Position numbers and translations under genes: made by a program. From assembly GCA_017560095.1 (NCBI GenBank), contig JAFYOU010000027.1, positions 176,718 to 240,717 of the forward strand: a stretch of DNA of 64,000 nucleotides, given 5' to 3'. Shown here in pieces: positions 24,119 through 54,381 of this stretch (positions are counted from its first letter, which is position 1; the number at the start of each line of letters is the position of its first letter). This stretch comes from Candidatus Gastranaerophilales bacterium. GTDB lineage: Bacteria; Cyanobacteriota; Vampirovibrionia; Gastranaerophilales; Gastranaerophilaceae. The notes beneath the pieces were generated by a model. That model ran no database searches. It was not told the DNA's origin and worked only from the letters and a program-made list of their open reading frames with translations.

Positions 24119-26140
24119 ATGATTCAAGGTATTCGCATTACCAAATTACATGCTCAAAAATTAAGCATGTCAAAACACGTTGCTCCTATAAATGTAGCGC
24201 ACAACACAATTACTAATTTTGAAAGAAACTCAATTGCTGCAAGTGATGCAATTAAAACCCACAATTTTAATCTTGCCAGAACAATAAGTTTTGGTGCTTC
24301 ATTGGGTAAAGCCATTGAAAACCATACAAAACCAATGATAACATGCGGAAATGAAGGCGTTGGTGAAGTTATTGATATTACAGGTCTATTATTCGATACA
24401 CAAAATGATAGAATGAATCCCGGAGACAGCGCAAAATCAAACACTATGATAGGTTCAAGATATGTAAGAAATAGTGCGACTGCAATTGGTGCAACTATAT
24501 TCCCTGGAACACAAAACACTAAATTTACAATGGTTGTTCGTGGTGATGATGCCAAAGAATATAATCAACGCTCAGAGCACCCAGTGCAAAAAATAGCAAT
24601 TACTACAACGCCCATAAATAAAAAAGGACAAGGAACAAAAGAACAAGTTCGTGTTCTTAATACAAAAGGCAATAAAGGCGATAATTTTGTTGTAACCATA
24701 CAAGATGATAACAGAAACATCTTAATGACAAATGCAGGAAGTATAACAAAAAAAGAACAAGCGGAAGGTTTACTAAGCGCAGAAGCCGAACAGGCTAAAA
24801 ATATTTTTAAACCATTCAATGTTACTATGGATCCAATTCAACCAAATGTACCAATGCCTTCAATAGGCAAAGGTACCGAAATTGTAATCGGTATGGAAAA
24901 TGGAAGATTTGTAAACGAAATTAAAGCTTCAATTCGCGAATTTGTTGAAAAAATTGAAAATGAAGAAATAATTCTTCCGCAATTCATAGCAGCAGAAAAT
25001 GCAAGTGATATCCAACTTGTTATGCTTGCAGGCGGGTTTGGATCACGTGCAGAATATGCAAATGCAATTTCTGAAAAAATCGTTGACGGTACACAAAATG
25101 GTGCAATTTCGACAAAAGGCGTATTTAGAACAGCTACTGGTTTAACACCAATGGAAACAACATTTGTAACTTTACACAAAGCTGGACTACTTGACTGTTC
25201 AAAAGGTAAAATTGGCATAGGTAAAAACATTCATTTTTATTTAAATCAAGGTCAAAACAGAGGCAATGGCGAATTTAGTGCTGATCTATATCAAACAATG
25301 GCTCGCCCTGGAAGAAAAGCGGCCTTAATTTTACCAAACGACTCAATGTCAAGAATGACTAACGCTGTAATCGAAGCAAATAGATTAATTAACAGTGGAG
25401 ATGCCGCTATTGCAATGATAGCCAAAAAAGTTAAAGCTCAAGATTGCATTAAAACATTCGGCATTATCAAATATGATCCACAAACAAAACAAATTCTAGG
25501 CTTTGCAGAAAAGCCTTCAGAAGAAGATTTATATGGCAAATATGCTGATTACATCGATGAAGATGGTATGTGTGTAACAAATACATTCCAATTTGCTGTA
25601 TCAGATCAAGCATTTCAAGTATTAGATAAACTTGAAGACTTATTTATTCCAAAAATTGACCCAAAAACAGGAAAAACAAAAGAAACAAGGGATTGGTCAA
25701 GCCAATATGTGCCAATTATCAAAACTCTTACTGAGGAAACTAACACAGAAGTGATTAGACAACAACTTGCAATATCCCTTAATAATAAGCCAGAAGCAAT
25801 TTCCGATGAAATAATTGCCGAATGCAAAACATTATTAGGTAATCAAAAATTATATACAATTCCAACATCAGAACCTTGGGCAGATTGCGGAACATTAAAT
25901 GCGTTGTATGACACAACAATGAAAATCGTTAGTGGCGATTTTCCTCTGGAGGGCTTTGAAAGAGCACGAGCTTTTTCTTGCGTTAATACTCAAACTGGTT
26001 TAATTGCCTCTAGTCCCGAACAAAAAGAAGAAATTGAAAGTAAATATCAAATCAAAGGGCAAGTAATAGCTGCAAGACTAGCCCCAAAAATCACCGATAC
26101 AAAAGTTGCTGACATCCCTGTGGTTGTCCATAGAGATTAA
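24119..26140 (+). CDS. NTP-transferase-domain protein with SFG-tagged N-terminal extension
   Basis: A 673-residue protein. The sugar-1-phosphate nucleotidyltransferase fold begins near residue 300 with LVMLAGGFGSRAEYANA, followed by GLTPMETT, the LPNDSMSRM segment (counterpart of the LxGD motif) and IIKYDPQTKQILGFAEKP, as in ADP-glucose or mannose-1-phosphate enzymes. The first 60 residues are rich in N, H, T and K and end RTISFGAS, the SFxG box shared by several proteins here. Residues 70-300 are an extra region I do not recognise. AAAGG lies just ahead of the ATG, and a terminator follows. The sugar substrate is unknown. Confidence 0.72.
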   Translation: MIQGIRITKLHAQKLSMSKHVAPINVAHNTITNFERNSIAASDAIKTHNFNLARTISFGASLGKAIENHTKPMITCGNEGVGEVIDITGLLFDTQNDRMNPGDSAKSNTMIGSRYVRNSATAIGATIFPGTQNTKFTMVVRGDDAKEYNQRSEHPVQKIAITTTPINKKGQGTKEQVRVLNTKGNKGDNFVVTIQDDNRNILMTNAGSITKKEQAEGLLSAEAEQAKNIFKPFNVTMDPIQPNVPMPSIGKGTEIVIGMENGRFVNEIKASIREFVEKIENEEIILPQFIAAENASDIQLVMLAGGFGSRAEYANAISEKIVDGTQNGAISTKGVFRTATGLTPMETTFVTLHKAGLLDCSKGKIGIGKNIHFYLNQGQNRGNGEFSADLYQTMARPGRKAALILPNDSMSRMTNAVIEANRLINSGDAAIAMIAKKVKAQDCIKTFGIIKYDPQTKQILGFAEKPSEEDLYGKYADYIDEDGMCVTNTFQFAVSDQAFQVLDKLEDLFIPKIDPKTGKTKETRDWSSQYVPIIKTLTEETNTEVIRQQLAISLNNKPEAISDEIIAECKTLLGNQKLYTIPTSEPWADCGTLNALYDTTMKIVSGDFPLEGFERARAFSCVNTQTGLIASSPEQKEEIESKYQIKGQVIAARLAPKITDTKVADIPVVVHRD

Positions 26141-26150
26141 TCAATAAAAC

Positions 26151-26181
26151 AAAAGACCCTTCCTTGCGAAGGGTCTTTTTT
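26151..26181 (+). terminator. Rho-independent terminator after the NTP-transferase gene
   Basis: A 12-bp stem (AAAAGACCCTTC / GAAGGGTCTTTT) with a 5-nt loop and a T run. It lies between converging genes and may serve both. Confidence 0.92.
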
Positions 26182-26194
26182 ATGTTTAATAGTT

Positions 26195-26968
26195 TTAAAT
26201 AAACAGCATTTCTCTTTGATTTCTAATAATTTCTTTGTTGAAAGAATTTCTATAAGAAATAGTTCCAACCATTTCTGAAATTGCTGATTTTATGGCAACT
26301 TCGGTTTCTAATTTACATACAAACGAATCAACATTTACAGCATTTGCTCCATTTTCAAATGCAAATTTTAAAGCAGCTTTGTTAATTGCACTTGTAGCCA
26401 TAATCGGCAAAACAGTATGTTTTTGTAGTTCAGATAAGCCTTTAATAGAAAATTCTGCACTTTCAACAATAACATTATGATTAGAAGGAGATTTTTTATA
26501 GCCTTCGCAGACCAACAAATCTACACCAATAATTTCTAACTTTTTAATTAAATCACATTGTTCTTCAAATGTTAAAGAGGCAGGAATCGTAACACAAGTA
26601 TAGACATTGTATTCATTTATAATACCTAATGTTTCAAGAATAACATCATAAATTTCAACAGCACTGTACCTTTTTCCGGCTTTATAAACATCAAAATAAG
26701 GGCCAATTTGAATTGCATCAACTCCAAGTTTAACTGCATTCAAAATTTCAAAAGGATGAATTGAAGAAGCAAAAAGTGGAAGTTTTGTATTTTTTCTTGC
26801 TATATTATAAGCTTCTTTATTAATTGGAATTTCAACCGCACTAGCTTTTGAAGCTTGTGCTGAACGACAAATTTGCGCAACTTTATTTAAATCGTAATTA
26901 CCTGAAGCAGCAGAAATTTTAATTGCTCTTTTTTCCCTCAAGTGTTTTTTGAAAATTTCAATTCCCAT
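26195..26968 (-). CDS. ycf23: Ycf23 / DUF561 TIM-barrel protein
   Basis: The 257-residue protein matches the layout of the Ycf23 family: FKKHLREKRAIKISAASGNYDL at the start, IQIGPYFDVYKAGKRYSAVEIYDV in the middle, VCEGYKKSPS and a phosphate-type end GANAVNVDSFV. Function is not established; the fold suggests a phosphate-binding barrel enzyme. The family is known mainly from cyanobacteria and algal plastids, which makes it a useful lineage clue. AAAAGGAAC precedes the ATG. It ends facing the NTP-transferase gene across a shared terminator. Confidence 0.82.
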   Translation of the reverse strand: MGIEIFKKHLREKRAIKISAASGNYDLNKVAQICRSAQASKASAVEIPINKEAYNIARKNTKLPLFASSIHPFEILNAVKLGVDAIQIGPYFDVYKAGKRYSAVEIYDVILETLGIINEYNVYTCVTIPASLTFEEQCDLIKKLEIIGVDLLVCEGYKKSPSNHNVIVESAEFSIKGLSELQKHTVLPIMATSAINKAALKFAFENGANAVNVDSFVCKLETEVAIKSAISEMVGTISYRNSFNKEIIRNQREMLFI

Positions 26969-27079
26969 TAATTTGTTCCTTTTTTACACTCTAGTTGAAT
27001 TTTAACATACCTAAATATTATGTGCAATGAAACTAAATTTTTCACATGGTAACATCTTATTCACAATCAAAGGTATGTT

Positions 27080-27781
27080 ATGTATAAATATATAAAAACA
27101 AATTTTGCATTTTTATTGCTACTTTTATTATTTTTATTGACTTTAAACATGAAAAGTATTGCATTTGATTACAATTCAATAGAAGAAAAAAATATAATTG
27201 AAATATACGAAAAAACATTACCATCAATTGTATCAATAGAAGCAGAAATTGACAGAGGTACATCTGGTGGAACAGGATGTGTAATATCAAAAAATGGAAT
27301 CATTTTAACCAGCTCTCACGTAATAGAAAACGCAAGAAACATTGAAGTTATTACGCATAGCGGAAAAACATACACTGCAATAATTTTAGCAATTTTAAAA
27401 AATAAAAATGATTTAGCATTAATTAAAATTAATACAAATGAAAACTTGCCATTGGCAAAATTTGGAAACTCTGACAATATAAAAGTAGGTCAAAGAGTAC
27501 TAACAATTGGATGCCCTTTTGGATTTAAAGATACACTGACAACCGGAATAGTCTCAAGAATCGATTATGAAAGAAATAAAATTCAAACAGATGCAGCAAT
27601 AAATCCTGGGTGTTCTGGCGGGCCATTATTAAATTTAAAGGGAGAAATAATAGGAATTAATCAGTCAATATACAATCCTGATAATAATCGCTCAAATATA
27701 GGAATAGGCTTTGCGCTTCCTATCAATTATGCTCTTGATTTTATCCAAAAAGCAAATAAAAAATTATCAACACTAAAATGA
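27080..27781 (+). CDS. Secreted trypsin-like serine protease (HtrA-type core, no PDZ)
   Basis: The 233-residue protein starts with an uncleaved-anchor-like or signal helix (FAFLLLLLLFLLTL). The catalytic triad is His in LTSSHVIEN (near 75), Asp in KNDLALIKI (near 112) and Ser in NPGCSGGPL (near 177), with Cys in place of the usual Asn two residues before the Ser. There is no PDZ domain, unlike DegP. It should act at the membrane or outside it. An AAAGG site sits before the ATG. The last 9 nt overlap mnmA tail to tail. Confidence 0.85.
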   Translation: MYKYIKTNFAFLLLLLLFLLTLNMKSIAFDYNSIEEKNIIEIYEKTLPSIVSIEAEIDRGTSGGTGCVISKNGIILTSSHVIENARNIEVITHSGKTYTAIILAILKNKNDLALIKINTNENLPLAKFGNSDNIKVGQRVLTIGCPFGFKDTLTTGIVSRIDYERNKIQTDAAINPGCSGGPLLNLKGEIIGINQSIYNPDNNRSNIGIGFALPINYALDFIQKANKKLSTLK

Positions 27782-28834
27782 AGAAATTATTGTACCGCCA
27801 CCCAAAACGACATCTTCTTGATATAAAACAACTGCTTGAGATGGTGCAATTGAACTAATTTTATCCAAAAATTCAATTTTAACCTCGTTCATATCTGGAT
27901 AAACAACAACATCAACAGGAAGCGAGGCAGAGCGAATTTTTGCTTGAGCCTTAAACGCTTTTGTTGGATTATTCAATGCAACCCAATTAAAATCACGCGC
28001 AATAAGTCCTTTGCAATAAGTATCATTTTTAACACCAATAATAACAGAATTATCCGTTTGATTAATTTCTAAAACATATAATGGCTCACTATAAGCAATC
28101 TTTAAGCCCTTTCTTTGTCCTATTGTATAATTCCAAATCCCATCGTGATACCCTAAAACATTTCCGTACTTATCTTTCAATTCACCCTTTATTGGTGCAA
28201 CATCAAACAATTCAGAATAATCACCCTTATAAAAATCTTGACTATCTTGTTTTTGCGCAACAGGTATATTGTTTATAATTGCATATTGTCTTACTTCTTC
28301 TTTTTGCATTGAACCAAGCGGAAACAAAATATTGCTCAATTCTTTCTGGGACAATTTGTATAAAAAATAAGTTTGATCTTTTTTAGGATTAATGCCTTTT
28401 TTTAACTCCCAACGACCCGTATTGGAATTAAATTCATTTCTTGCATAATGCCCTGTAGCAAATTTATCAAATTGAATACCTAATTTTTGAATAGCCTTAG
28501 GAAAAGCACCAAATTTAATTAACTTGTTGCACATCACGCAAGGGTTCGGGGTTAATCCTGACAAATATTGATTTTTAAATTCACTAAATACAACATTATC
28601 AAACTCGGATGCCAAATCAACAGTTACAAATTCACAACCAACATGATTACAATTTGCTAGCGCATCATTTTCTTCCTTAACCTTGTCAGTACCATAACAG
28701 GAATTAGCAATAGACTTTATATCTCCGCTATAAATTTTCATCATGGCGCCAACAACGCTGTGCCCTTGAGATTTTAATATATGTAAAGCAACCGCTGAAT
28801 CAACGCCGCCCGATACGCCAACTAAAATTTTCAT
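27773..28834 (-). CDS. mnmA: tRNA 2-thiouridylase MnmA
   Basis: MnmA thiolates U34 of tRNA-Lys, -Glu and -Gln (a tRNA-Gln UUG is present in this window). The PP-loop is ILVGVSGGVDSAVALHIL at the start. The catalytic cysteines sit in PNPCVMCNKLIKFG (near 105) and near DSQDFY/CxxC-type context, and QKQDSQDFYKG with TIGQRKGL are diagnostic. I chose the ATG at 28834; the longer reading begins with TTG two codons upstream and has no better ribosome site. Confidence 0.94.
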   Translation of the reverse strand: MKILVGVSGGVDSAVALHILKSQGHSVVGAMMKIYSGDIKSIANSCYGTDKVKEENDALANCNHVGCEFVTVDLASEFDNVVFSEFKNQYLSGLTPNPCVMCNKLIKFGAFPKAIQKLGIQFDKFATGHYARNEFNSNTGRWELKKGINPKKDQTYFLYKLSQKELSNILFPLGSMQKEEVRQYAIINNIPVAQKQDSQDFYKGDYSELFDVAPIKGELKDKYGNVLGYHDGIWNYTIGQRKGLKIAYSEPLYVLEINQTDNSVIIGVKNDTYCKGLIARDFNWVALNNPTKAFKAQAKIRSASLPVDVVVYPDMNEVKIEFLDKISSIAPSQAVVLYQEDVVLGGGTIISSF

Positions 28835-28875
28835 AAACAAATGATAGCATAAATTAACAAATCAAAACAAACCCC

Positions 28876-28903
28876 TTGATTTTTTTTGTTGAGCAGATAT
28901 TAT
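28876..28903 (+). promoter_or_regulatory. Promoter of rpmB
   Basis: TTGATT, 16-bp spacer, TATTAT. The transcript would carry a short leader with AAAGGA before the rpmB ATG. Confidence 0.5.
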
Positions 28904-28936
28904 TAAAATAACAAATACTTATGAAAGGATGTAGAA

Positions 28937-29128
28937 ATGTCAGTATATTGCGAAATCTGTGGAAAAGGTTCACTAAAAGCAGCTAAGATTTCGTTCTCTC
29001 ATAAACAACATGTACACAGACAATTGCCAAACTTGCAATCAGTAAAAGTTAGATTAGCAAACGGCACAGTTAAAAGAATGTCTGTTTGCACATCTTGTAT
29101 CAGAGCAGGGAAATTTACTAAAGCGTAA
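28937..29128 (+). CDS. rpmB: 50S ribosomal protein L28
   Basis: The 63-residue protein shows the four-cysteine zinc form of L28 (CEICGKG at the start, VCTSCIRAGK at the end) with the conserved HRQLPNLQSVKV strand. AAAGGA lies 8 nt before the ATG. It is a single-gene unit between its own promoter and terminator. Confidence 0.96.
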   Translation: MSVYCEICGKGSLKAAKISFSHKQHVHRQLPNLQSVKVRLANGTVKRMSVCTSCIRAGKFTKA

Positions 29129-29154
29129 GTGAAGCTTTTAATAAAACAAAATTA

Positions 29155-29202
29155 AAGACGGTTGAGATTATTAATTTGCATAAATTTAATCTGACCGTCT
29201 TA
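29155..29202 (+). terminator. Long hairpin terminator after rpmB
   Basis: AAGACGGT plus GAGATTA pair with TAATCT and ACCGTCTT (one bulge), with an AT-rich loop and a short T-rich end. It separates rpmB from the glycosyltransferase gene. Confidence 0.75.
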
Positions 29203-29221
29203 AATTTTACGGAGTATAAAT

Positions 29222-30406
29222 TTGAAAATAGGCATTTATTTAGGGGACATCAAAAAACCAAATTCAGTAGGAGATTTAACATTTGAACTTTCATTTGTTG
29301 AAGAACTGCTAAAACAAGATACGGCTCACGAGTTTGTCTTTTATTATTTTGGACAAAAACAAGACTTCAAAGAACAAGAAAATGCACGTTTTGTCAATTT
29401 AAAATACTACAAAAAACCCCAATTAGGGCTTAATCCGATTTCGATAAAATTCTATAAAACCCCTTATCGTTCGCTAAATCATCGCTTAAAAAAAGATAAC
29501 ATCAATGCGGTATTCTTTTTAACTCCATATCTTCACGAGCATATAGAAATACCGTATTTTGCAGCAATTAGAGATGTTGCACACAGAATCTTGCCACACT
29601 TTCCAGAATTTAGTACAAATTCCGTTTTTGAACGAATGGATAAAAAATTAAATTTATTTTTAACAGGTGCGACAAGAATTCTAACTTGCAATCATGTGGT
29701 AAAAAATGACATCATAGCTCTTTACGATGTCATAGACGAAAACACCGAAGTCATAAATCTTCCTTATCCGAATTGGATTGAAAAAACAAAAGAAGATAAA
29801 AACTTTTTAAAATGGAATGATTTATCCAAAAACAATTACATATATTACCCAGCCCAGTTTTGGAGCCACAAAAATCATATACGCCTAATTTTAGCAGCGC
29901 AAATAATGAAAGAGCAAAATATTAATCTAAAAGTTGTTTTCTCTGGACTTGATAGAGGGAATAAAAAATACTTAATTAATCAAGTTGAAAAACTAGATTT
30001 ACAAGAAAAAGTTATTTTTTTAGATTATGTTAATCAAAAACAAATGGCTTCATTATATAAAAATGCATACGCATTAGTGTATCCAAGCTTGGCTGGCCCA
30101 GACACCATTTCAGCCTTAGAAGCGTTATATTTTAATTGTCCAGTTTTGATTTCAAATCACTTAGGATATACTCAACAACTAAAAAAAGCAGCTTTATATT
30201 TTAACCCCTTGGATGAAATGGACATAGTAGCTAAAATACAAAATTTAAATGATTTAGCAATAAAAGATGATTTAATAAACAAGGGCCAAGCAATAATAAA
30301 AGAAAACACAATGCAAAAATATATAGATAAGTTTTTAAATATAATGGATAGTTTTTACTTAACAAGACAATGTTGGTCATTAGAAGAAAGTTATTTAAAT
30401 AAATGA
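29222..30406 (+). CDS. GT-B glycosyltransferase (group 1 / GT4-like)
   Basis: The 394-residue protein has the two-domain GT-B layout. The N-terminal half begins MKIGIYLGDIKKPNSVGDLT, and the C-terminal half has YYPAQFWSHKNHIRLILAAQ, the FLDYVNQKQMASLYKNAYALVYPS stretch and GPDTISALEALYFNCPVL, the GPD..EA motif of GT4 enzymes. It should transfer a sugar to a cell-surface glycan. It starts at TTG with GGAG at good spacing upstream. The next gene overlaps by 4 nt, which implies coupling. Confidence 0.86.
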   Translation: MKIGIYLGDIKKPNSVGDLTFELSFVEELLKQDTAHEFVFYYFGQKQDFKEQENARFVNLKYYKKPQLGLNPISIKFYKTPYRSLNHRLKKDNINAVFFLTPYLHEHIEIPYFAAIRDVAHRILPHFPEFSTNSVFERMDKKLNLFLTGATRILTCNHVVKNDIIALYDVIDENTEVINLPYPNWIEKTKEDKNFLKWNDLSKNNYIYYPAQFWSHKNHIRLILAAQIMKEQNINLKVVFSGLDRGNKKYLINQVEKLDLQEKVIFLDYVNQKQMASLYKNAYALVYPSLAGPDTISALEALYFNCPVLISNHLGYTQQLKKAALYFNPLDEMDIVAKIQNLNDLAIKDDLINKGQAIIKENTMQKYIDKFLNIMDSFYLTRQCWSLEESYLNK

Positions 30407-31644
30407 ATATAATCGGCTTATTTTTTTTAATCGGGATAGTGTTAGTATTAGTTATTTTGCTTTCAATATTAATAATTAATTATGAAAAAAGAAACAAGAT
30501 TAAATCAATAAAAACATTACAAGATATATTGGATGAAGCTTGTTTTTATCCAACGGAAATACATTTTGTTAATAAAAAATTATCAATTGCACTTAACAAA
30601 AGTAAAACAAAAATTGCGATAATTAAAAATTTTAATCCTAACAACCCAAGATATTATGTATACCAAGAAATAGCACTGTCTTTTATCGAAAAAATTGAAA
30701 AAAATATTTCAGGAAAAATTTATTACTTAAAAAAAGGTGAAATAAATAGTTTAAACATATACCCATTAAACAAAGAAATAGTTGACTTTTTGCACAATAT
30801 TTTTGAATTATCACTAATAAAAAGAATTGAAAACAAATTTCCCGAATGCAAGTTTACAAGCTATAGTTCAAGCGATTGGGAATGCAATTATTTTTGGGCT
30901 TATTCAAAATATAATTCTACGTTTGCATATTTAAAATTAAACCCAAAAAATCAATACGGGAAAATAAATCTTAGAAAAGAACATTTTACAATAGATACAA
31001 AATTTAATTATTTTGAAGCGCCAATTTTTGGAATTGCACAGCAATTGTTCACATATAACAACTATTTTTTAAAGAATATTTACGAAGACTTATTAAAATT
31101 AATAAAAGAAAAATATAGCCAAATAGCTCATAATTCAATTTATTTTGATAATTATAGCAACACTACATATCTGACAAACGGTACAAATTCACTTCAATCT
31201 ATAATAATAGATAAAATAGATAAAGTAGATTATAGAGATAATAGAATCTTGTTTAAACTATATAATGAGCATCGCACAATCAATTACATAGCAAATCAAG
31301 AACAAATTTCGGAATTTGAAAATTTTGTTATAGATCACAACCTTAAAAAAATCGCCCAAGGATTTAACAACAAAACTGACAAACTAATCAATACAACCCC
31401 TTACACAAAATTAATAATTGATTTTAGCAGAGACAGAGTAATTTATTGCGCCAATTTAAACAGATTTTCAAGTTTCAATTATATAACAATACCTTTTATA
31501 GAAATAGAAAAAATTAATATTGAAAAATCAGGTATAAAATATTTTTTAAGAATTAACACCAAAAACAAAGAAATTGTCGATATCACTTGTGACAAAAAAG
31601 AAGTTGCGCAATACATAGAAGTGCAACTATCCAAAATTATATAA
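30403..31644 (+). CDS. Hypothetical membrane-anchored protein, 413 aa
   Basis: One N-terminal transmembrane helix (IIGLFFLIGIVLVLVILLSILII) is followed by about 385 hydrophilic residues rich in K, N, I and Y and low in alanine. I recognise no domain. Two segments in the last third (residues 280-340 and 360-413) look like short beta repeats (YTKLIIDFSRDRV, IEKINIEKSGIKYFLRI). The base composition is more AT-rich than that of its neighbours. The ATGA overlap with the glycosyltransferase suggests joint translation and a possible link to glycan assembly. Confidence 0.7.
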   Translation: MNIIGLFFLIGIVLVLVILLSILIINYEKRNKIKSIKTLQDILDEACFYPTEIHFVNKKLSIALNKSKTKIAIIKNFNPNNPRYYVYQEIALSFIEKIEKNISGKIYYLKKGEINSLNIYPLNKEIVDFLHNIFELSLIKRIENKFPECKFTSYSSSDWECNYFWAYSKYNSTFAYLKLNPKNQYGKINLRKEHFTIDTKFNYFEAPIFGIAQQLFTYNNYFLKNIYEDLLKLIKEKYSQIAHNSIYFDNYSNTTYLTNGTNSLQSIIIDKIDKVDYRDNRILFKLYNEHRTINYIANQEQISEFENFVIDHNLKKIAQGFNNKTDKLINTTPYTKLIIDFSRDRVIYCANLNRFSSFNYITIPFIEIEKINIEKSGIKYFLRINTKNKEIVDITCDKKEVAQYIEVQLSKII

Positions 31645-33694: not shown

Positions 33695-34777
33695 ATGTTG
33701 AATATTAGCCCAATTAATTTTACAAAAATCACTAATAATTTTGCAAGAGCAAATCAACCAATCAATCAAGGCTTAACACGAGACGTTTTTGTAAAAAGTA
33801 CAAACAATGTTAGTTTTAAAGGAAATGAAATAAAAGCAGATAAAAGTGATTTCCAAAAATGGGCTGAAGAAACAGATTTTGTACAAACTCAATTATTAGA
33901 TATTATTACTAACAAAGAAAATGAAATTGGTTCTGGTTTTATACATACTGCATTTTCAATTCCTGGTAACGACGATTACATTTTAAGAATTAGTACAAGA
34001 TCTTTAGAATGGACTTTATGTGAAGAAAATATTGGAATTGCTGAATTAAATGTCGTTGATGGCAATGATGACATTAATGTTGGTCAAGAAGTTGCCACTA
34101 TTACAATTCCAGATAAAGATGCAAGACCAGAAGAATATTCTTGGAAAAATACTAAAATTGAAGTTTTAAGAAGACAACACGGAGAATCAATTGGCGTACA
34201 ACCACCTGAAACTTTAGTAGAAGGAGAATGGAGCACTCATACAAAACCGGGTGTTGAACCATATGAAGCACCGTCTAGAAAAGAAAAATATGCAAGAACC
34301 ATTCGTAAAGTTGCAGAATTACCTGTAGAATCATATGAAAAATTAATTGAAACTTTCAAAAAAGCTTCAGAAACTGGTTACGATTTTGACTACTTAAATT
34401 CAAATAACTTATTAGTTGATACAGAAGAAGGTGCTATTAATCTAATTGATATGGAAAAAGGTCATGATCCAGTAAAACCAAACTACTTAAACTTATTATA
34501 TGCACTTACAAATGTAGCATACTATGGAACTTATACTGCAGATTGGTGTAAAGACCCTATTCCTGAAGACAAACGAGAAGGTGCAAAACAAGACACAGTA
34601 ACTATAATTAATAAATTTATGAGTGCTATGAAGAATAAAGGCGAAAAATTAAACAGAAATGATGTTTCTTTCCAAGCACAAATATACTTATTAAATAGTT
34701 TACCAATGACGTATGCTTGTGGTGGTGATAGTGGATTTTGGCAAAAAGCTAATGAAATGGGTATTTTAGAACAATAA
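33695..34777 (+). CDS. Kinase-fold-like protein with SFKG-tagged N-terminus
   Basis: A 360-residue protein with AAAGGAG before the ATG. Residues 1-45 are a low-complexity N/T/Q-rich tail ending NVSFKGNE (SFKG at 40-43). Further on, YILRIS near 95-100 looks like the ATP-lysine strand (with Arg) and SNNLLVDTEEGAINLIDMEKG near 235-250 looks like the catalytic-loop N and metal-binding D of aminoglycoside-phosphotransferase-like kinases. The protein from 49305 has the same arrangement. The catalytic Asp usually before the N is not obvious. Its role is unknown, perhaps a phosphotransferase effector. It lies between the two repeat copies. Confidence 0.6.
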   Translation: MLNISPINFTKITNNFARANQPINQGLTRDVFVKSTNNVSFKGNEIKADKSDFQKWAEETDFVQTQLLDIITNKENEIGSGFIHTAFSIPGNDDYILRISTRSLEWTLCEENIGIAELNVVDGNDDINVGQEVATITIPDKDARPEEYSWKNTKIEVLRRQHGESIGVQPPETLVEGEWSTHTKPGVEPYEAPSRKEKYARTIRKVAELPVESYEKLIETFKKASETGYDFDYLNSNNLLVDTEEGAINLIDMEKGHDPVKPNYLNLLYALTNVAYYGTYTADWCKDPIPEDKREGAKQDTVTIINKFMSAMKNKGEKLNRNDVSFQAQIYLLNSLPMTYACGGDSGFWQKANEMGILEQ

Positions 34778-46416: not shown

Positions 46417-47256
46417 ATGAGTTTAAATTACATTTTAAGAGCTAAAAAATTTAAAGCGAAAAAATCTTTAGGGCAAAATTTTTTAATAGATGAAAAAATT
46501 ATTGATTTTATATCAAGCAACGCAAAAAAAGATGATGAAATTTTGGAAATCGGGCCAGGCCTTGGTTTTGTAACAGAACAACTTATCGAAAATTCATCCA
46601 AAGTAGTTGCTCTTGAAATAGATAGAGATGCAATAAATATTTTAAATAAAAATCTTGGTGATAAAGAAAATTTTCACCTAATTGAACAAGATATTTTAAA
46701 AACAAATATAAATGACTTACCATTTACAAAAGACAAGATTAAAGTAATCGCAAATATTCCATACTACATCACAAGTCCAATTTTAGTTCATCTATTGGGT
46801 GAAATTGATGAACTTTCACACAAAAATCGTTCAAGAATATCTGAAATTATTCTAATGGTACAATTGGAGGTTGCAAATAGAATTGTGGCAAATGAAAACA
46901 GCCAAAACAAAGAATATGGTCAACTTTCAATTTTATCTCAAATGTATTGCGACGTTGAAATAATTAAAAAAGTCCCCAAAAATTGCTTTTCACCAGCCCC
47001 AAAAGTAGATAGTGCATTAGTTAAATTTACAATAAACGAAAAACCAAAAGTTGAAATAACTCGTCTTTTAAAAAGAACTGTCAAAGCTATATTTATGGCA
47101 AGAAGAAAAAATGTTAAAAATTCATTACTTAATGCAGGCTTTATAGAAGTTGAAAAAGCATTAGAAAACACTGGAATAGATAAAATGACACGTGGCGAAA
47201 AGCTTTCTTTAGAAAAAATCCAGCAACTTTCTGTAGCTCTAGAGGAATTTAATTAA
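46417..47256 (+). CDS. rsmA: 16S rRNA (A1518/A1519-N6) dimethyltransferase
   Basis: KsgA/RsmA methylates the last hairpin of 16S rRNA. The 279-residue protein begins with KKSLGQNFLID (the conserved K-S-G-Q-N-F-L), has the SAM loop EIGPGLGFVTEQL (near 48) and the catalytic NIPYYITSPI (near 113). The length is normal. Its stop overlaps the ispE start by one base. Confidence 0.96.
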   Translation: MSLNYILRAKKFKAKKSLGQNFLIDEKIIDFISSNAKKDDEILEIGPGLGFVTEQLIENSSKVVALEIDRDAINILNKNLGDKENFHLIEQDILKTNINDLPFTKDKIKVIANIPYYITSPILVHLLGEIDELSHKNRSRISEIILMVQLEVANRIVANENSQNKEYGQLSILSQMYCDVEIIKKVPKNCFSPAPKVDSALVKFTINEKPKVEITRLLKRTVKAIFMARRKNVKNSLLNAGFIEVEKALENTGIDKMTRGEKLSLEKIQQLSVALEEFN

Positions 47257-48026
47257 TGCAAATAAAAATTAAATGCCCAGCAAAAATTAATCTTGATTTA
47301 AAAGTTTTTCCCATTAATGCTGATGGTTTTCATCCAATCAAAAGCATAATGCAAACTATAAGTTTATTTGATTATCTAAATATTTCAATCTCGGATGGAA
47401 ATGAAATCAAACTAAATGGCAATAGTGAAGAAATTCCTTATGACGAAAAAAATATTTGCCACAAAGCTGCAAAATTATACTTACAAACAATAAAACAAAA
47501 CAAAGAAGTTAAAATATATATTGAAAAAAATATTCCTGTTTGCGCCGGCCTTGCAGGTGGATCAACAGACGCAGCAGGAGTACTGTTTGGTTTAAATGAA
47601 ATTTTCAACAAGCCATTAGATAAAGAAGAGCTCCACAATCTTGCAAGTCAACTTGGTTCAGACTTAAACTTTTGCCTTGAAGGTGGAAGAAAACTTTGCG
47701 AAGGCAGAGGTGAAATCCTGACCTCGCAAAAGTTTATTGAATTTCCAATAACATTGGTCAAACCAAAAAAACTTCAAATTTCTGCCCGAGAAGCTTATAT
47801 TGCATATGATAATTTAAAAAAACAATCTAATATGCCAAATGATTTGGAATTTGCACTAATTGATAAATACGAAGAACTTAAATATTTACACTCACTAGGC
47901 CTACAAATGTCTGGCTCCGGGCCAACTTATTTCATCAAAAAAGAGGAACTTGGCTACAAATTAGATAACAATTATTTAATAATTGAAAATCTAAAAACTA
48001 TAGATTATGGGGTTGTCAAAATTTAA
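47256..48026 (+). CDS. ispE: 4-diphosphocytidyl-2-C-methyl-D-erythritol kinase
   Basis: IspE phosphorylates CDP-ME in the MEP isoprenoid pathway, upstream of the ispH enzyme in this window. The 256-residue GHMP kinase has CPAKINLDLKV at the start, the ATP loop PVCAGLAGGSTDAAG (near 93) and LQMSGSGPTYF near the end. Translation is coupled to rsmA by a one-base overlap. The last bases overlap the 3' end of the metallopeptidase gene. Confidence 0.95.
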   Translation: MQIKIKCPAKINLDLKVFPINADGFHPIKSIMQTISLFDYLNISISDGNEIKLNGNSEEIPYDEKNICHKAAKLYLQTIKQNKEVKIYIEKNIPVCAGLAGGSTDAAGVLFGLNEIFNKPLDKEELHNLASQLGSDLNFCLEGGRKLCEGRGEILTSQKFIEFPITLVKPKKLQISAREAYIAYDNLKKQSNMPNDLEFALIDKYEELKYLHSLGLQMSGSGPTYFIKKEELGYKLDNNYLIIENLKTIDYGVVKI

Positions 48027-49150
48027 ACGTTATTTTGCAATTTAACTTTTGGCCCATGCAAACTTTTATATAATTTTTTTGAATTTTCAGGCAATTCCAA
48101 TCCTTGCAATTGTAGAGCGAAAGCTTCAGCAATAAACTCTGGCACCCCATAACATGCATATGGCGAAACTGCAAATGCAGCTTGCATTGTTTCATAGTTT
48201 TCGAGCCATTTTCTCATAGTGGGATTGTAAGCTTGTGGATTCCTAAAATCAGTAATTATAAAATGATAATTATACAGATAACTTTGCAAATGCCCAAGCT
48301 CATGAAATAAAGTTTTGTATCTTGTAAAATTAAAATCAAAATCGATTTTACTGTTTTTATGAGCAGTTAAAAAACCAAAAAGATTTGCAAAATTTGATTT
48401 TTTATTTTCTTCACGTAAAATTTCAACTTCAAAAGCATCAATATCATCTTTTTTAAAATCACCATAACAACCAGCTCTTAGCATTTTAACAATTAAATCT
48501 TTAGGATATTTATTTAAATTTGAAGTTTTTGAATAAAATTTTCTTAAATCCGTATATAGTTCAATTCTTTGCGAATAATTCAACCCATCTAAATCACCAC
48601 CAGCCCTAGAAAATACGTCATTAAAATATTCAACAACAGTGAAATTATCAAAATATGGACTAAGCTTACAAGATGTATCAATAACTCCATCTTGCATTAA
48701 AGTTGAAACCATTTTTTTTATTTCACCAATTAATCCTTGCGGGGAATATATTTGACTATTCACGGTTAAAACCGAACTTGGATTTTTTGTTGTTCGCATT
48801 AAACTTATACCAATATCATCAAAACATATATGATCAGGGGTTTTTAAGCGAGTTTTCGAAGTATTTATAGCCTCACAAAGGCCTTGGTTTATAAAATTCA
48901 AAACACATAAGGATTCTTCACTAAAACCATGATAACTTTTAACCCCAAAATGTTTTCTTCCAAAGTCATAAGCCTCTTCAAGCGAATTAGCATCCTTAAA
49001 TTCAATAGGAATTTTTTTACCAAATGATAAATAATAATTTTTAGGATAAGAAGCTTTTTAAGACTGAACAACATCAAAACTGGAGTGAAATTTTTCGGTC
49101 TTAAAATTGTATTCTTGTTTACAAAATTTCATTATAGGTAAAATTTTCAT
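48023..49150 (-). pseudogene. Zinc metallopeptidase gene interrupted by one in-frame TAA
   Basis: Read from an ATG at 49150, the frame stays open for 375 residues except for one TAA at 49058-49060 (codon 31). Beyond it, a further 52 codons have good coding sense (YPKNYYLSFGKKIPIEF, AYDFGRKHFGVKSYHG) before the first standard start, a TTG at 48901. The body has FHELGH, a zincin HExxH site (codons 283-287), and an EFIAEAFAL helix that may give the third ligand. The LSFG at 41-44 matches the N-terminal box of its neighbours. So this is a single nonsense mutation, stop readthrough, or sequence error in a tagged peptidase. Confidence 0.72.
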
Positions 49151-49304
49151 GATACATATAAAAAACAAGAAGAGATTAAAACTTGCATGTTTAAAATTTA
49201 AAAATAATGATTGTAAACTTTTGTGAATAAAACATTTAAAAAAAGCATAATAAAAAATTCAGATGCTTTATACGACCAGCAAAAATCAAAAAAAGGAATT
49301 AAAA

Positions 49305-50630
49305 ATGTTAAACTTGCAAAATATAAACCAAATCAGAAGTTTGTCGCCAGCATTAAAATTAATACAACCAAAAACAGCTACAAATACAATTAAACTAAAA
49401 CCACAATTAACTGCTGACGTATTTCAACTCTCGTTTGGCTCAAATATTTCAACAGAAAAAGCGTCCAGTGATGAATTATATTCACTTGATCAGTTAACAA
49501 CAAAAATAATCGAACTAAGAACTGCTGAAAGTAGTGAAGAGTTAGAAAATTTGACTGATGAATTTTTACATCAAGCATCTGAAAACAAAACAAATATTGC
49601 AGACTTCTTAAGCGAAAAAGGACTTGATTGTGAAACGGCTTTAAAATTTTTATATGGTTTATGCAAAGAAGAAGAAACCGGTAAAGTTTTAGTTGCTGGT
49701 TTAACAAAAAATCCAAAAGAATCTCAAGAAATTTACAACAAATTAGTTTCTGCTATAGCTTCAAATGAAAAAGATGAACAATTATTTAATTCTTGGTTTC
49801 AAGATGAAATAGCAGGATATAAAGTTGCTTTTAAAAATTATTATAGAGCAATGCTTCGAGATAAAAACACCGGATTGGAAGATATTGTCAAATTTTCACC
49901 AAATGTAGCTCCTTGGGTGCTTGTCGAAAAAGCTGGCAGAACCGATTTTACTATTGGAAATTTGCCAGGCTCAGATGATCCTGCGGCAGGCAAATTTTCA
50001 TACGAACTTACATGGCCAAATGACTATAGAAAATTTGTTTATGACATTGCAAATCTAGGAGAAAATGAAGAAAAACGTTTTGGCTACAATAATGAAAATA
50101 GCGTAAAATTAATTAGCCCTGGTGAGTCAGCAAAAAGAGTTTATCGAATAACAACAAAAAACCAAGGTGACTATATTCTAAAAGCCGATCCGATTTACCC
50201 AAGAAGTACAGATTGGTATAGCAATAGGATACGTGAAAACTTAGATTTGAGAGCCGATATGCCATACACAAATGCAATGATTGATTTTTATTTAAAATTT
50301 AACGGTCTTGAAGATAGTGTTGCGGATGTACAATTTTATGATCATTTAACGGGTTCTATTTTATACAAGGCTACTGATGGCGAAGCTTGCATAGATGAAT
50401 TTGACCCAGAAATTTTTGAGAATGTTTATATTTTTAGAATGCATCCTACAGCTAAAAAATATCAAGAGGTTGGAATATATTTAAATGATATGAACCCTCA
50501 AAACTTCTTGAAGGACAAAAATGGCAACATAGTCTTAATTGATACAGGCCATGCTAATTATAAAGATCCGCTAAAACCACTTACCATAGGTATGGTAGTA
50601 TTAAGTAATTTATGCGGAAGGACATTATAG
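49305..50630 (+). CDS. Kinase-fold-like protein with LSFG-tagged N-terminus
   Basis: I set the start at 49305, where AAAGGAA lies at good spacing; an upstream frame extension has no site. 441 residues: an unstructured tail of about 45 residues (N/T/K/Q-rich) ending VFQLSFGS (42-45), a helical region, then a kinase-like core. GDYILKADP (near 290) resembles the ATP-lysine strand and NPQNFLKDKNGNIVLIDTG (near 398-416) resembles the N and D of the catalytic and metal sites. It shares this arrangement with the SFKG protein from 33695. Function unknown. It precedes the PHP gene by 10 nt. Confidence 0.62.
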   Translation: MLNLQNINQIRSLSPALKLIQPKTATNTIKLKPQLTADVFQLSFGSNISTEKASSDELYSLDQLTTKIIELRTAESSEELENLTDEFLHQASENKTNIADFLSEKGLDCETALKFLYGLCKEEETGKVLVAGLTKNPKESQEIYNKLVSAIASNEKDEQLFNSWFQDEIAGYKVAFKNYYRAMLRDKNTGLEDIVKFSPNVAPWVLVEKAGRTDFTIGNLPGSDDPAAGKFSYELTWPNDYRKFVYDIANLGENEEKRFGYNNENSVKLISPGESAKRVYRITTKNQGDYILKADPIYPRSTDWYSNRIRENLDLRADMPYTNAMIDFYLKFNGLEDSVADVQFYDHLTGSILYKATDGEACIDEFDPEIFENVYIFRMHPTAKKYQEVGIYLNDMNPQNFLKDKNGNIVLIDTGHANYKDPLKPLTIGMVVLSNLCGRTL

Positions 50631-50640
50631 GTTTTTTATC

Positions 50641-51966
50641 ATGAACATAAGGCCAATTGGTACTGTATCAACAATAAAACAAAATAATATAAAAAAAAAT
50701 AAAACGGGTATAAACTTTTCTGGACGCTTAACATCCTTAGTAAACCCATTATTGAATACAACAAATACAAGAATTATGAATTATAATCCATTTATAAATG
50801 GCATTATGCCCATAGAAAAAAGAGATAAGCTTTTCCCAAAAGACGAAAAATACAGAAGAGAATTGGCAAATTCCCTAGGGATTACAGATCAAAAAAAATT
50901 GGCTTCTATAGTTGGTCATCAAGAATTAAAAGAAATTTTAAAAAATTCAAAACCATCCAATTTTAATCCTATGCTAGACGAAAACGGATATCCTACCAAT
51001 CCAGATTTTTGTATAAATTTACATATGCATACGAAATACTCAGATGGATGTTTTGAGATAAAAGATTTGCTTGAACAGGCGCAACAATATGCAGAGAAAA
51101 CTTCAAGACCAATTTTAATTTCAATTTCAGACCACGACACTCTTGAAGGTACTAAAGAAGCAATAAAATTAATAGCAGGCAATCCTGAAAAATACGATAA
51201 AATCTTATTTGTCCCATCAATAGAATTAAATGCAAAATATCAAAATCCATCAATCACAAGAGCTGAAGTGGGGCATAATTATGCATTTCAACTTGAGCTT
51301 TTGGGATATTCAATAAATCCTTTTAATCCAAAATTAAATGCTTTTATTGAAGAATTAAAAGACTCGAACAGCGAAATAGTAACCCAAATTCTTGATGTTT
51401 TCCAAGAAGAATATCCCGAGCTTAAAATAAGCATTGAGGAAGCAAAATCAATTAAAAAATCTGATAACGGAAACAGGACACATATGTTTTATCTAGGAAG
51501 CTCAGGAATAATTGATGATATAAAATCCTATTTGCACTCTAAAGCAGATTCAATTACTGACAAAACCAAAAAAGATGAAATACGAGCTTTTATTAACGAA
51601 TATTTTGAAAAATATCGCCAAGAATATGGCAGCAGAAACGTAATGCCTAAAACTCCCAACATAAAAGAAGCTATAAAAATATTAAAAAGCGATGGTTTTG
51701 GCTTCGTTGGAATTGCACATCCTGCAAAAATAGATTTAAATGGCGCAAAAGAAATTGGAAATTCTTCGCTCAAAAAAATTATTAGCGATTTTTATATTTG
51801 GGGTGGCAATGCAATTGAATACAACTATCAATATCCGGGAGCAGAAAACAACAAAGGATATACGGATTGGATTAATTCAATTAATGAATTTTGCGACACA
51901 AAATACCCCTGCATAATTAAAGCTGGCGGAATTGACAATCACGGAACAAGTATATTTAAACGTTAA
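50641..51966 (+). CDS. PHP-domain phosphoesterase with NFSG-tagged N-terminus
   Basis: The 441-residue protein has a tail of about 28 residues ending GINFSG, then a linker, then a PHP fold: NLHMHTKYSDG (metal His pair at 128-130), ISDHDTLEG (163-170), PSIELN (near 190) and later GIAHPAK with GGIDNHG at the end. PHP enzymes are trinuclear-metal phosphatases or exonucleases; a small-molecule phosphatase is most likely. No ribosome site is seen, so it is probably translated by coupling with the kinase-fold gene upstream. Confidence 0.8.
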   Translation: MNIRPIGTVSTIKQNNIKKNKTGINFSGRLTSLVNPLLNTTNTRIMNYNPFINGIMPIEKRDKLFPKDEKYRRELANSLGITDQKKLASIVGHQELKEILKNSKPSNFNPMLDENGYPTNPDFCINLHMHTKYSDGCFEIKDLLEQAQQYAEKTSRPILISISDHDTLEGTKEAIKLIAGNPEKYDKILFVPSIELNAKYQNPSITRAEVGHNYAFQLELLGYSINPFNPKLNAFIEELKDSNSEIVTQILDVFQEEYPELKISIEEAKSIKKSDNGNRTHMFYLGSSGIIDDIKSYLHSKADSITDKTKKDEIRAFINEYFEKYRQEYGSRNVMPKTPNIKEAIKILKSDGFGFVGIAHPAKIDLNGAKEIGNSSLKKIISDFYIWGGNAIEYNYQYPGAENNKGYTDWINSINEFCDTKYPCIIKAGGIDNHGTSIFKR

Positions 51967-51975
51967 ACAGTTTAA

Positions 51976-54381
51976 CTATCTGATTCTTGCAAAAATTGCA
52001 GTCGTAGATCCAGATAAATTAATAGCTGTTAATGTGGATCCATCACTATATATCTCATTTTTGCCATTAATATTACCCGAGCCACCATATTTTTTATCAT
52101 CAGTATTAAGTTTTTCAATCCAAACACCTTGGGGGAACTGAATATAGTATTTTGCTGCACCTTGTCTTGGATATTTTAAATCTGCAAAATTTGTAACGGA
52201 AAATACCTCGTTTTTCCTTTGAGGATCATAAGCATGTGTAGCGAAAACATTATCAGGATTTTTTATGGTACTGTCTATCAATAAATAACCCCTTGCAAGC
52301 GCTGGGTTTTCAACATTTAGCTGATTTAAATCTTTGGTAAGTCTTTTAAACTTATTCATCAAATCTTTAGCTGATGTAGCGTAAGAAATGGATCCCATTT
52401 TTGATTCATTATATGCAGCTAAACCAGTATCGTATCCTTTTTCAACATGCATAGAATGTTCATTTCTAACAGACTCAAACTGCCTAAAAAACCTAAATGG
52501 TGTTAAATCAGCCTTTTCATCACCCTGGAAAACCATCTTTGGACCAGGAATTGAATAAGTTCTAGCTAACGCCATTTTATTTTTATCAAAACTTTTCATA
52601 AATGTTTCTTTTACTGCATCATAAGTGACACCAGATGAGGATTTTATACCCAAAGGCATTAGTATATCATAAATAAAGCTTTCTTCAAGTTCTGCTCTTC
52701 TTTTTGAATTTGTTATATTGGCAGTATTATATCTATCTAACTTTCCTGTTTGATACATGATTGCCAAATGCTCTGCCACAAATTGCGCTTTTTGCATAAC
52801 TAAAGATCTTTTTGCGTCATGCATAGATTTTTTGGCTATCGAGGCAAATTCATGAACTCTTCTATGATCATTTTCATCCAATATTATATTCTCGTTTAAA
52901 TGTAACATAGGCACCATTAATTTAGCAATTAATCTAGTACCTTCCCTATTTCCAATTTCATCATGGCTCATTACGTATTTGACGGCATTTTGAGAACAAT
53001 AACATGCTTTTTCAAACCTATCTAAATTAATTACACCATACAGCCCTTCCTCTAGACAATGATGATAATTAAAATCCCATTCACTGTCATACCCAAGTCT
53101 ACCTAATGAAGTTTTTCCGCGACATATATCCTCAATTGCCTCACAATGAACTTCTTGAGAAGCAGATTCACCATACTCAAATGGTAAAAGGCTGTTTACA
53201 ACACGTTTATCATGCACTTCACCAGGATTATCCCAATAATTACCAAAATCATCAACACTTATTTTTTCTCTTGAATCTTCTGCAATTAAAAACGCATCAG
53301 GAAAATGATAATTTACCTCTGCAGCAATTTGTTTCATTGTGTAATCTGATTGCATATACTTAGTCATATCTAAACGCAGTCCGTCACAATGATAATTTGC
53401 AAGCCAATTAAGTGCCGAATTAACGATGTAATCTCTTACATATCTAGAATTCTTGCCTTCAAAATTAAACGATTCACCGAAATCATTTTGCCCTTGAATA
53501 TATGGGCCAGTTTTTTTCAAAGAAGCTCCATCAGGCCCAAGGTGATTGGGGACCATATCCATAATAACATTCAATCCAATACTATGAGCATAATCAATTA
53601 ATTCTTTCAATTGATCCGGACCACCCCTATGCTCTGCAGGTGCAAATTTATCAACACCATCATACCCCCAATTAAAAGAATAAGTATTTTCTACAGGCAT
53701 AATTTCTATCGCATTAAAACCAATTCGCTTAATTGATTGCAAAACACTTTTAGTTGACTCATAAGTACCATCTTTTGTCAAAGTAGCAATATTTAATTCA
53801 TATATTCTTGCATTACTAACCGGAGTTAATTGATTTTTTCGATTTGCTACTCTAGAGATTCTATGTTTATCTTCATTGAACCAAAAACTATCTCTCCATC
53901 TATATCTAGAATGATCATAAACAACGGACTCACCAAGCAATTTCATTTGTCTAAATGAATAAGGATCTTTGACGGTATCAACATTACCATCACCTTTATA
54001 TATTGTATAAGAATATTTGTCGCCATGTTTTACCTCTCCGGCAGGAATAGGTTCTTTTGTTGCAAAAACACCCTCACCCATATTCGTTAATTCATAAGTT
54101 TTTTTTGATGTTTCATCTTTAGAATCTACTACCGTCACAATAACTTTTTTTGAATCAGGGTAGGTTAGAATTTTAAAAATTGTTTCTTTGGTTTTGGGAT
54201 TAATAACTGCACCCCAACTAGTATGCTCCGACCACTTTCTTGTAAATGAAATAGGCATTTGATAAACATTTGGTAACGCATCCATTTGTTTATAACTTTT
54301 TGCTATGTCCCTATTAGATAATTTTTCTTTGGTTTTATCTAAGCCTTTATTAGAAACCGGAATAATACTATCAATTTTCAT
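51976..54381 (-). CDS. GH13 alpha-amylase-family enzyme with CBM48 and ISF-tagged N-terminus
   Basis: 801 residues. The N-terminal tail of about 46 residues ends MPISFTRK. Next is an early-set/CBM48 domain (about 55-140), then a GH13 barrel: region I DMVPNH (275-280), region II GLRLDM with nucleophile Asp 338, the acid Glu in IAEDS (near 368), and region IV MSHDEIGN (near 480). A C-terminal beta domain ends near residue 800. This suits a branching enzyme or maltooligosyltrehalose hydrolase type, acting on alpha-glucans. No Sec signal. It converges with the PHP gene. Confidence 0.83.
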   Translation of the reverse strand: MKIDSIIPVSNKGLDKTKEKLSNRDIAKSYKQMDALPNVYQMPISFTRKWSEHTSWGAVINPKTKETIFKILTYPDSKKVIVTVVDSKDETSKKTYELTNMGEGVFATKEPIPAGEVKHGDKYSYTIYKGDGNVDTVKDPYSFRQMKLLGESVVYDHSRYRWRDSFWFNEDKHRISRVANRKNQLTPVSNARIYELNIATLTKDGTYESTKSVLQSIKRIGFNAIEIMPVENTYSFNWGYDGVDKFAPAEHRGGPDQLKELIDYAHSIGLNVIMDMVPNHLGPDGASLKKTGPYIQGQNDFGESFNFEGKNSRYVRDYIVNSALNWLANYHCDGLRLDMTKYMQSDYTMKQIAAEVNYHFPDAFLIAEDSREKISVDDFGNYWDNPGEVHDKRVVNSLLPFEYGESASQEVHCEAIEDICRGKTSLGRLGYDSEWDFNYHHCLEEGLYGVINLDRFEKACYCSQNAVKYVMSHDEIGNREGTRLIAKLMVPMLHLNENIILDENDHRRVHEFASIAKKSMHDAKRSLVMQKAQFVAEHLAIMYQTGKLDRYNTANITNSKRRAELEESFIYDILMPLGIKSSSGVTYDAVKETFMKSFDKNKMALARTYSIPGPKMVFQGDEKADLTPFRFFRQFESVRNEHSMHVEKGYDTGLAAYNESKMGSISYATSAKDLMNKFKRLTKDLNQLNVENPALARGYLLIDSTIKNPDNVFATHAYDPQRKNEVFSVTNFADLKYPRQGAAKYYIQFPQGVWIEKLNTDDKKYGGSGNINGKNEIYSDGSTLTAINLSGSTTAIFARIR

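Follow-up and report, generated by a model that had tools for sequence, protein, structure and literature searches.

A recurrent N-terminal tag on unrelated proteins of the Gastranaerophilales and its possible relation to a flagellar-type export apparatus

In a window of 64,000 nucleotides from Candidatus Gastranaerophilales bacterium (GenBank assembly GCA_017560095.1, contig JAFYOU010000027.1, positions 176,718 to 240,717), which belongs to a genome of 2.07 Mb assembled into 58 contigs, proteins of unrelated folds share a short N-terminal element. This element is a two-ended tag specific to the order, consisting of an M-x-[I/V]-x-x-[I/V] start, a disordered tail rich in N, Q, and P and poor in D and E, and a hydrophobic-[S/N]-F-x-G box (loosely F-x-small), after which the folded domain begins; that the tag is real is close to certain. 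Computation showed that the box is biased towards N-termini in the pooled order, that start and box tend to occur together, that the F (and, in one family, a D-x-F motif) is conserved in tails that otherwise diverge, and that the tail of a kinase-like family is predicted to be disordered. The purpose of the tag is probably trafficking of some kind, and the explanation that best covers the whole, held at somewhat less than even confidence, is an order-specific N-terminal trafficking tag with export via a second flagellar-type type III secretion system (T3SS) as the most likely route.

Position bias and anatomy of the tag

Counts were taken from sampled stretches and covered 1470 proteins of the order and 369 proteins of four other families (outgroup). 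The sample was non-random, with the stretches of genomes G008, G034, and G046 coming largely from contigs with the kinase-like gene and one set chosen around flhA genes; f1, f2, and so on are the family handles of the search tool, G000 is the genome of the window, and L numbers denote sampled stretches or loci. The box was tested as [hydrophobic][SN]F.G in an N-terminal zone of residues 5-75 versus further in, with the window excluded. Pooled over the order, it occurred at 46/104370 N-terminally versus 53/357891 in the interior (ratio 3.0, p = 1.4e-7), and with a single protein drawn at random from each of the 925 families (100 draws) the ratio was 2.9, with a median p of 1.7e-5 and a worst p of 3e-4. 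An excess was detected in f7 (22/35571 vs 22/118627, p = 9e-5), f4 (4/4473 vs 2/15804, p = 0.024), f2 (2/4544 vs 0/16607, p = 0.046), and genome G008 (4/8875 vs 3/31500, p = 0.046). No significant excess was found in G001+G028 (p = 0.23), G034+G030+G035 (p = 0.62), or f6 (p = 0.085), and f3 had zero boxes in either zone. The window's own genome alone, outside the window, gave a non-significant ratio of 1.4 (5/25063 vs 13/87998, p = 0.37), and the four outgroup families of the class showed no excess (4/26199 vs 23/97287, ratio 0.6). Of the eight permutations of the motif counted in the order, seven gave ratios of 0.8-1.2 and one, [SN]F.D, gave 1.6 (p = 0.025). The bias is beyond chance for the order and weak for the own genome alone. 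An earlier reading made from the letters alone (the sequence-only reading) had presented the box as an N-terminal feature, and for the pooled order this stands, with a threefold higher density of the box near N-termini than in protein interiors and nearly flat permuted motifs.

A position-weight matrix of the box also gave a strong N-terminal excess and was excluded as evidence, having been trained on the same N-termini. Rule-based tag callers were noisy (12/402 in G000 vs 3.1 shuffled, 14/501 in f7 vs 2.9, and 0/141 in f6) and were used for adjacency only; tagged genes were neighbours in 7 pairs against 2.0 expected (p = 0.0025), two of the pairs looking like false calls. The tagged proteins and boxes of the window are as follows, with coordinates counted from its first letter; GH13 stands for glycoside hydrolase family 13.

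24119..26140, plus strand: divergent, tagged, GlgC-like nucleotidyltransferase (Pfam NTP_transferase, PF00483; glgC model TIGR02091 at 30 bits against a cut-off of 425)
24119..24283, plus strand: its N-terminal tail, residues 1-55 (conservation score 0.14 for residues 2-50, 16 sequences)
24284..24295, plus strand: its box ISFG, residues 56-59 (F58 in 16/16 sequences, own included)
33695..34777, plus strand: kinase-like protein (tail predicted disordered to residue 47, fold from about residue 51)
33782..33799, plus strand: its second motif, DVFVKS at residues 30-35 (D30 and F32 unchanged across 32 sequences, counting the own one)
33812..33823, plus strand: its box SFKG, residues 40-43
49305..50630, plus strand: protein with a stretch weakly resembling a kinase catalytic loop (hhalign probability 9%)
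49428..49439, plus strand: its box, LSFG at residues 42-45 when counted from the 49305 start (at 56-59 from a 49263 start), directly following DVF
50713..50724, plus strand: box NFSG, residues 25-28, of a PHP-type protein starting at 50641 (RNase RNM model at 50 bits against a cut-off of 375)
51976..54381, minus strand: divergent, tagged, TreZ/GlgB-like GH13 (Pfam alpha-amylase; under every NCBIfam cut-off shown)
54241..54252, minus strand: its box ISFT, residues 44-47 (F46 in 17/17 sequences of the genus, own included)
8978..8989, plus strand: box NFTG, residues 10-13, in the short tag of a protein starting at 8951 (no Pfam or NCBIfam match; "deiminase" is the name given by the sequence-only reading)
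16243..16254, minus strand: weak box PSFK, residues 11-14, of a CheR-type methyltransferase at 15460-16284 (Pfam CheR)
49019..49030, minus strand: LSFG in a metallopeptidase-like gene (HELGH; 48023-49150), downstream of an in-frame TAA at 49058-49060

The two ends of the tag occur together. In the order, the box was present in 16/124 proteins with the start, scored as M-x-[IVL]-x-x-[IVL] with the residues allowed at position 2 picked after examples had been seen, versus 28/1346 without it (odds ratio 7.0, p = 1.4e-7), and interior boxes were unlinked to the start (2/124 with it, 48/1346 without). In the GH13 enzyme, M, K, and I stood at the start of 15, 14, and 12 of the 17 sequences of the genus, respectively. 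Conservation, given as the fraction of sequences sharing the residue of the window protein at positions where this residue is the commonest (0 at all others), was 0.10 for the GH13 tail (residues 2-40), 0.50 for the box (44-47), and 0.50 for the domain, and 0.14, 0.30 (residues 56-60), and 0.52 for the corresponding parts of the nucleotidyltransferase; in one of the two alignments 2/18 loci and in the other 1/18 were cut off and left out. Since S57, G59, and A60 of the nucleotidyltransferase score 0, other residues being commoner there, and the F is found in all 16, the fixed point is the F and not the whole SFxG; residues preceding the F also include K, R, A, P, L, and H. Distant GH13 homologues carried an S/N-F-G box near the domain in f3, f4, f5, and f7, VTFG in f6, and a short variant of the box in G028. 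The box was not seen in the GH13 homologues of f2 (L158, L159) and G032 (L160), and no closed frame was obtained for another GH13 stretch in the own genome (L289).

The tails had been expected to be conserved along with their enzymes, and this is only partly the case: most of the tail is not (0.10-0.14 vs about 0.5 for the domains), and both ends are, as seen in the M-K-I start of GH13 and the invariant F, joined by D-x-F in the kinase-like family, so that a shared N-terminal tag is supported. Likewise, the hydrophobic-(S/N)-F-x-(G) box as originally defined keeps its F; neither the S/N in front of it nor the particular residue behind it is fixed, and the box is one part of the tag.

Seven of the eight boxes lie where they had been placed, with one span mended (ISFT occupies residues 44-47, not 44-46). 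The LSFG assigned to residues 41-44 of the metallopeptidase from an ATG at 49150 on the minus strand could not be upheld: the in-frame TAA, at codon 31, precedes it, so that this box is not in one open frame with that ATG as the sequence stands, and the gene is either interrupted or translated from another start. Pfam supports the families of three window proteins (24119, 51976-54381, and 15460-16284), gave only a sub-cut-off match (LIP) for the protein at 50641, and gave no match at 1e-3 for 33695, 49305, 8951, and 48026-48901. Joining 33695 and 49305 into a single family was rejected, only 41 columns aligning at a probability of 9%. Elsewhere in the window, the protein at 6238-8139 has, by eye, a pilin-type N-terminus and then many cysteine-rich CxxC repeats, as does the protein of L014:10109-11635 (start only), and these repeats presumably resemble those of protist surface proteins. 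The protein at 58052-59227 ends in proline-rich LPDAP/VPEDNEVLPEA repeats (by eye).

The kinase-like family and other tagged proteins

Relatives of the kinase-like protein were found at 39 loci, mostly in Candidatus Gastranaerophilales and also in Adamsella, Avigastranaerophilus, and Galligastranaerophilus, with a few titled only "Cyanobacteria bacterium" or "bacterium"; one locus without a frame was dropped, and 38 were used. In this family, a D-x-F-x-[K/R]-[S/T] motif (box B) stands before or after the F-x-G box (box A), and the order of the two varies. Box B was detected in 38/38 loci broadly and 35/38 strictly (shuffles: mean 0.15, maximum 2), and box A in 35/38 and 28/38 (shuffles: mean 2.4, maximum 7). 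The invariant D30 and F32 refer to an alignment of 31 of the 38 loci (7 near-duplicates left out) with the window protein. Beyond the family, D[TVSIMC]F.[KR][ST], whose letters were picked after the family had been viewed, was found at 11/107849 N-terminally versus 5/377156 in the interior with the window included, and 3 of the 11 N-terminal cases are kinase-like homologues.

The tails of the family are enriched in N (2.1x), P (1.8x), Q (1.6x), S (1.3x), and T (1.2x) and depleted in L (0.77x), V (0.64x), A (0.55x), C (0.35x), E (0.24x), and D (0.15x), and, judged by this composition, have no hydrophobic h-region of the Sec or lipoprotein type. In the AlphaFold model, the confidence score (predicted local distance difference test, pLDDT) was below 50 for residues 1-47 except 5 and 9 and averaged 91 for residues 51-60, placing both motifs within the predicted disordered tail. 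The traits of type III signals (N-terminal, disordered, polar, acid-poor, and without Sec) are found together in this family and were judged in the other families by reading the sequence. The kinase-like assignment itself is weak, suggested by low-scoring profile matches, all to kinases or aminoglycoside kinases (best E = 0.004), together with conserved D and N positions. A phage origin of the gene was rejected, with zero matches in 50,697 phage records.

From the sampled stretches, 30 candidates chosen for their N-termini were scanned with Pfam. No convincing Pfam family was obtained for 20 of these, and the other 10 were named CheR, PARP (two neighbours, sub-cut-off), Glyco_transf_5 (two), ankyrin, HNH (at the cut-off), Amidohydro_2, RNase III, and calpain C2 (sub-cut-off). 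The calpain-like protein (L009:4722) has the start and lacks the box, and the amidohydrolase (SFKQ), RNase III (LFGA), and ankyrin (SFGM) proteins have looser boxes by eye. At L090:11207-12966, the two adjacent PARP-like proteins, both with boxes, lie next to a kinase-like gene and a tagged member of glycosyltransferase family 5 (GT5).

The glucan-type enzymes are divergent, scoring 30 bits against a cut-off of 425 for glgC, 223 against 539 for TreZ, and 163 and 156 against 328 for GlgA. The own genome has an untagged canonical GlgA (450 bits) and a tagged second GT5, and 20/59 genomes combined a canonical GlgA match (>=180 bits) with a divergent match of >=60 bits in an open frame of >=750 aa. 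After loci without a frame were dropped (4/11 second GT5 and 1/30 canonical), the canonical GlgA of 29 loci was without such a tail (by eye), and among 7 second GT5 proteins the box was present in 4 by the broad rule and only a looser F in 3. In the second GT5 of L282, L283, L285, and L287, a tag-like start is followed by a hydrophobic, glycine-rich stretch, maybe a membrane anchor (by eye). A GH77 adjoining the paralogue of the FlhA C-terminal domain (FlhA_C) in G034 (L134:8721-10682) likewise has a tag-like start, by eye only.

Distribution of the flagellar-type export apparatus

The type III export apparatus shares genomes with the tag, FHIPEP and FliP each being present in 58/59 relatives. 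A high-scoring full FlhA (>850 bits) was found in 45/59 genomes and a lower-scoring full FlhA (about 665-735 bits) in 54/59. Eight genomes gave no flagellin match, and none of these has the high-scoring FlhA; one of them, G058, has no FlhA at all, and the seven order genomes without a flagellin match (G010, G029, G030, G031, G034, G035, and G048) all have the lower-scoring FlhA, with the lower-scoring form as their only FliP. The high-scoring FlhA was missing or fragmented in G006, G009, G027, G028, G042, and G051 despite flagellin matches, and the lower-scoring one was not listed for G032, G039, G049, G053, and G058. In G034, the lower-scoring FlhA lies beside FliE/F/G/H-like genes, and FliP beside FliQ/R-like genes and a FliMN_C protein (names mostly by eye); this genome (L123, L292, L134) retains flagellar-type export genes without a flagellin match. 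In published work, flhA is named twice for ACD20 (PMC3787301), and complete flagella gene sets are present in only 3/9 genomes, with a subset in the rest (PMC4040986).

In addition, a soluble FlhA_C paralogue was found that carries an N-terminal part of its own, roughly 130 residues long (L116:13538-15019, L134:10724-12202, L122:7192-8703). It was full length in 52/52 f1 genomes and in none of 42 other matching genomes from families outside the order, where the printed matches start at residue >=126; the other order families f2 to f7, outside this sample, gave partial FHIPEP matches of the same kind. Among the genomes listed, FlhA was absent from all 17 of f8 and both of f13. Contractile sheath proteins were detected in only 8/59 genomes, the own genome not among them, and contractile injection was rejected as a route on this ground.

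Competing explanations and the meaning of the tag

Short peptides that mark unrelated proteins are known elsewhere. The RXLR/PEXEL and Salmonella WEK-type motifs are short N-terminal motifs common to many unrelated secreted effectors; they differ in sequence from the present tag, whose kinase-like tails have no Sec signal. Encapsulin and microcompartment cargo peptides gather unrelated enzymes and resemble the tag as short appended peptides, but they are amphipathic helices or C-terminal. The flagellar gate recognition motif is FxxxPhi (F-x-x-x-hydrophobic), and in the kinase-like family, as read by eye, position +4 from each F is not regularly hydrophobic. Signals of type III effectors, as described in PMC3617162, prefer S, T, P, and N in exposed coil; the tag resembles them in its extreme N-terminal, disordered, S/T/P/N-preferring tail on unrelated folds and differs from them in its recurring start and box, since according to that source type III signals have yielded no motif in common. 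The Xanthomonas TrM (PMC6638074) resembles the tag as one short motif common to type III effectors that are unrelated in other respects, and it usually lies in the first 65 residues, though outside 1-28; it is rich in proline and arginine, unlike F-x-G and D-x-F, which have no Pro-then-basic core (by eye). No such tag is described in the listed titles and abstract openings of the Gastranaerophilales/Melainabacteria literature on secretion, motifs, and flagella, a set in which most subscription papers were not covered.

Of the trafficking, anchoring, or processing signal first proposed, the shared N-terminal tag holds, trafficking is what we infer from it, and processing is unsupported. If the tag is a trafficking label, it would be read by a dedicated receptor, and the most likely route, carrying about half of the weight of this reading, would be the second flagellar-type apparatus that flagellin-less genomes retain; the soluble FlhA_C paralogue might act as its substrate adaptor. 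Cargo proteins (kinase-like, PARP-like, ankyrin, HNH, methyltransferase, and divergent glucan enzymes) might then be effectors, by analogy with Chlamydia, for which PMC7935935 and PMC3722199 place glycogen synthase outside the bacterium in the host cell and propose T3SS secretion of glycogen-pathway enzymes. The tagged glucan enzymes differ from that case in being divergent, with a canonical untagged GlgA in the own genome and none found in G041 and G046. In a fuller version of this reading, a filament-less flagellar export machine would have been turned into an effector-delivery system with a label legible by eye (M-x-I start, F-x-G and D-x-F boxes), and a few percent of the examined proteins would be cargo, divergent glycogen-type enzymes among those sent into a eukaryotic partner. 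Joining the tag to the export apparatus, on the ground of their co-distribution, is plausible; export of tagged proteins by a flagellar-type T3SS is possible and rather doubtful, and the fuller version, with the FlhA_C paralogue as receptor and a gut protist or host cell as recipient, is considerably less likely.

Several results weigh against export by this apparatus. In f9, f12, and f14, FlhA occurs without a tag excess; the tag thus has a smaller range than the apparatus, and the substrate range does not follow it. A single event may have given the order both the tag and the FlhA_C paralogue. Tagged genes were not enriched near the second apparatus (3/230 vs 30/1085, p = 0.95; loose rule 8/230 vs 50/1085, p = 0.82), and f1 genomes without the flagellar FlhA gave a non-significant box count (1/9727 vs 3/35601), their tags having been picked by eye. 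G142, an f1 genome that is 99% complete and has the FlhA_C paralogue, has no full-length FlhA and only 3 partial matches. FlhA(b) scores nearly equally against flagellar FlhA and injectisome SctV (426 and 395 bits), and a separate secretin ring of the injectisome type was not seen in 36 f1 genomes, of which 31 have one secretin match, G032 two, and G006, G014, G018, and G027 none. The outgroup co-occurrence of start and box leans the same way as in the order on too few cases (1/13 vs 2/356, p = 0.10). Moreover, glucan enzymes outside the cell would need sugar nucleotides there, and the tagged GT5 of G041 and G046 is their only GT5 match and so possibly the housekeeping enzyme.

Some of the same facts would suit an intracellular recruitment tag, in which F-x-G and D-x-F are short linear motifs docking proteins on an internal scaffold such as the membrane, a glucan granule, or the cell pole. 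Glucan-type enzymes among the tagged proteins (one GH77 by eye) fit a cytosolic site with sugar nucleotides, in 4/7 second GT5 proteins a tag-like start leads into the hydrophobic stretch (by eye), tagged genes are unenriched near export genes, and the sole GT5 of G041 and G046 is tagged. Yet PARP-like, HNH, ankyrin, and kinase-like proteins have no obvious common internal site, and acid-poor disordered tails at the extreme N-terminus fit the needs of a translocation signal, leaving this explanation unlikely. If the tag addressed a different exporter, such as a type IV system or an ATP-binding cassette (ABC) exporter, instead of the flagellar-type T3SS, this would account for the mismatch between the ranges of tag and FlhA, and a type IV secretion system is reportedly present in the related Vampirovibrio. 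This alternative is nevertheless improbable on the systems considered, the contractile sheath being so rare and the gut types being said (PMC3787301) to be without a type I system.

A role without any trafficking, with N-terminal extension as a habit of the lineage and F-x-G capping or regulating the neighbouring domain or serving folding or turnover, is suggested by the box abutting the domain in GH13 and the nucleotidyltransferase, where the F alone is fixed. A similar box ahead of many unrelated families, and the variable order of boxes A and B on the disordered tail of the kinase-like family, argue against it and make it improbable. Chance in low-complexity, AT-rich sequence could draw on the own genome's lack of a significant excess outside the window and on the 11/369 outgroup proteins that loose tag rules also score; it is close to refuted by the pooled and deduplicated biases, the nearly flat controls, and the invariant F and D-x-F columns.

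If it is a sorting tag, it would provide a sequence handle on a whole protein set of a common, little-cultured gut lineage, the cargo of which could be listed by sequence. If export by the flagellar-type apparatus is true, it would suggest why non-motile Gastranaerophilales retain part of the flagella genes, and, as a putative type III signal, the tag would be unusual in having a motif that recurs. A docking role inside the cell would still single out a set of divergent enzymes as bound for one location.

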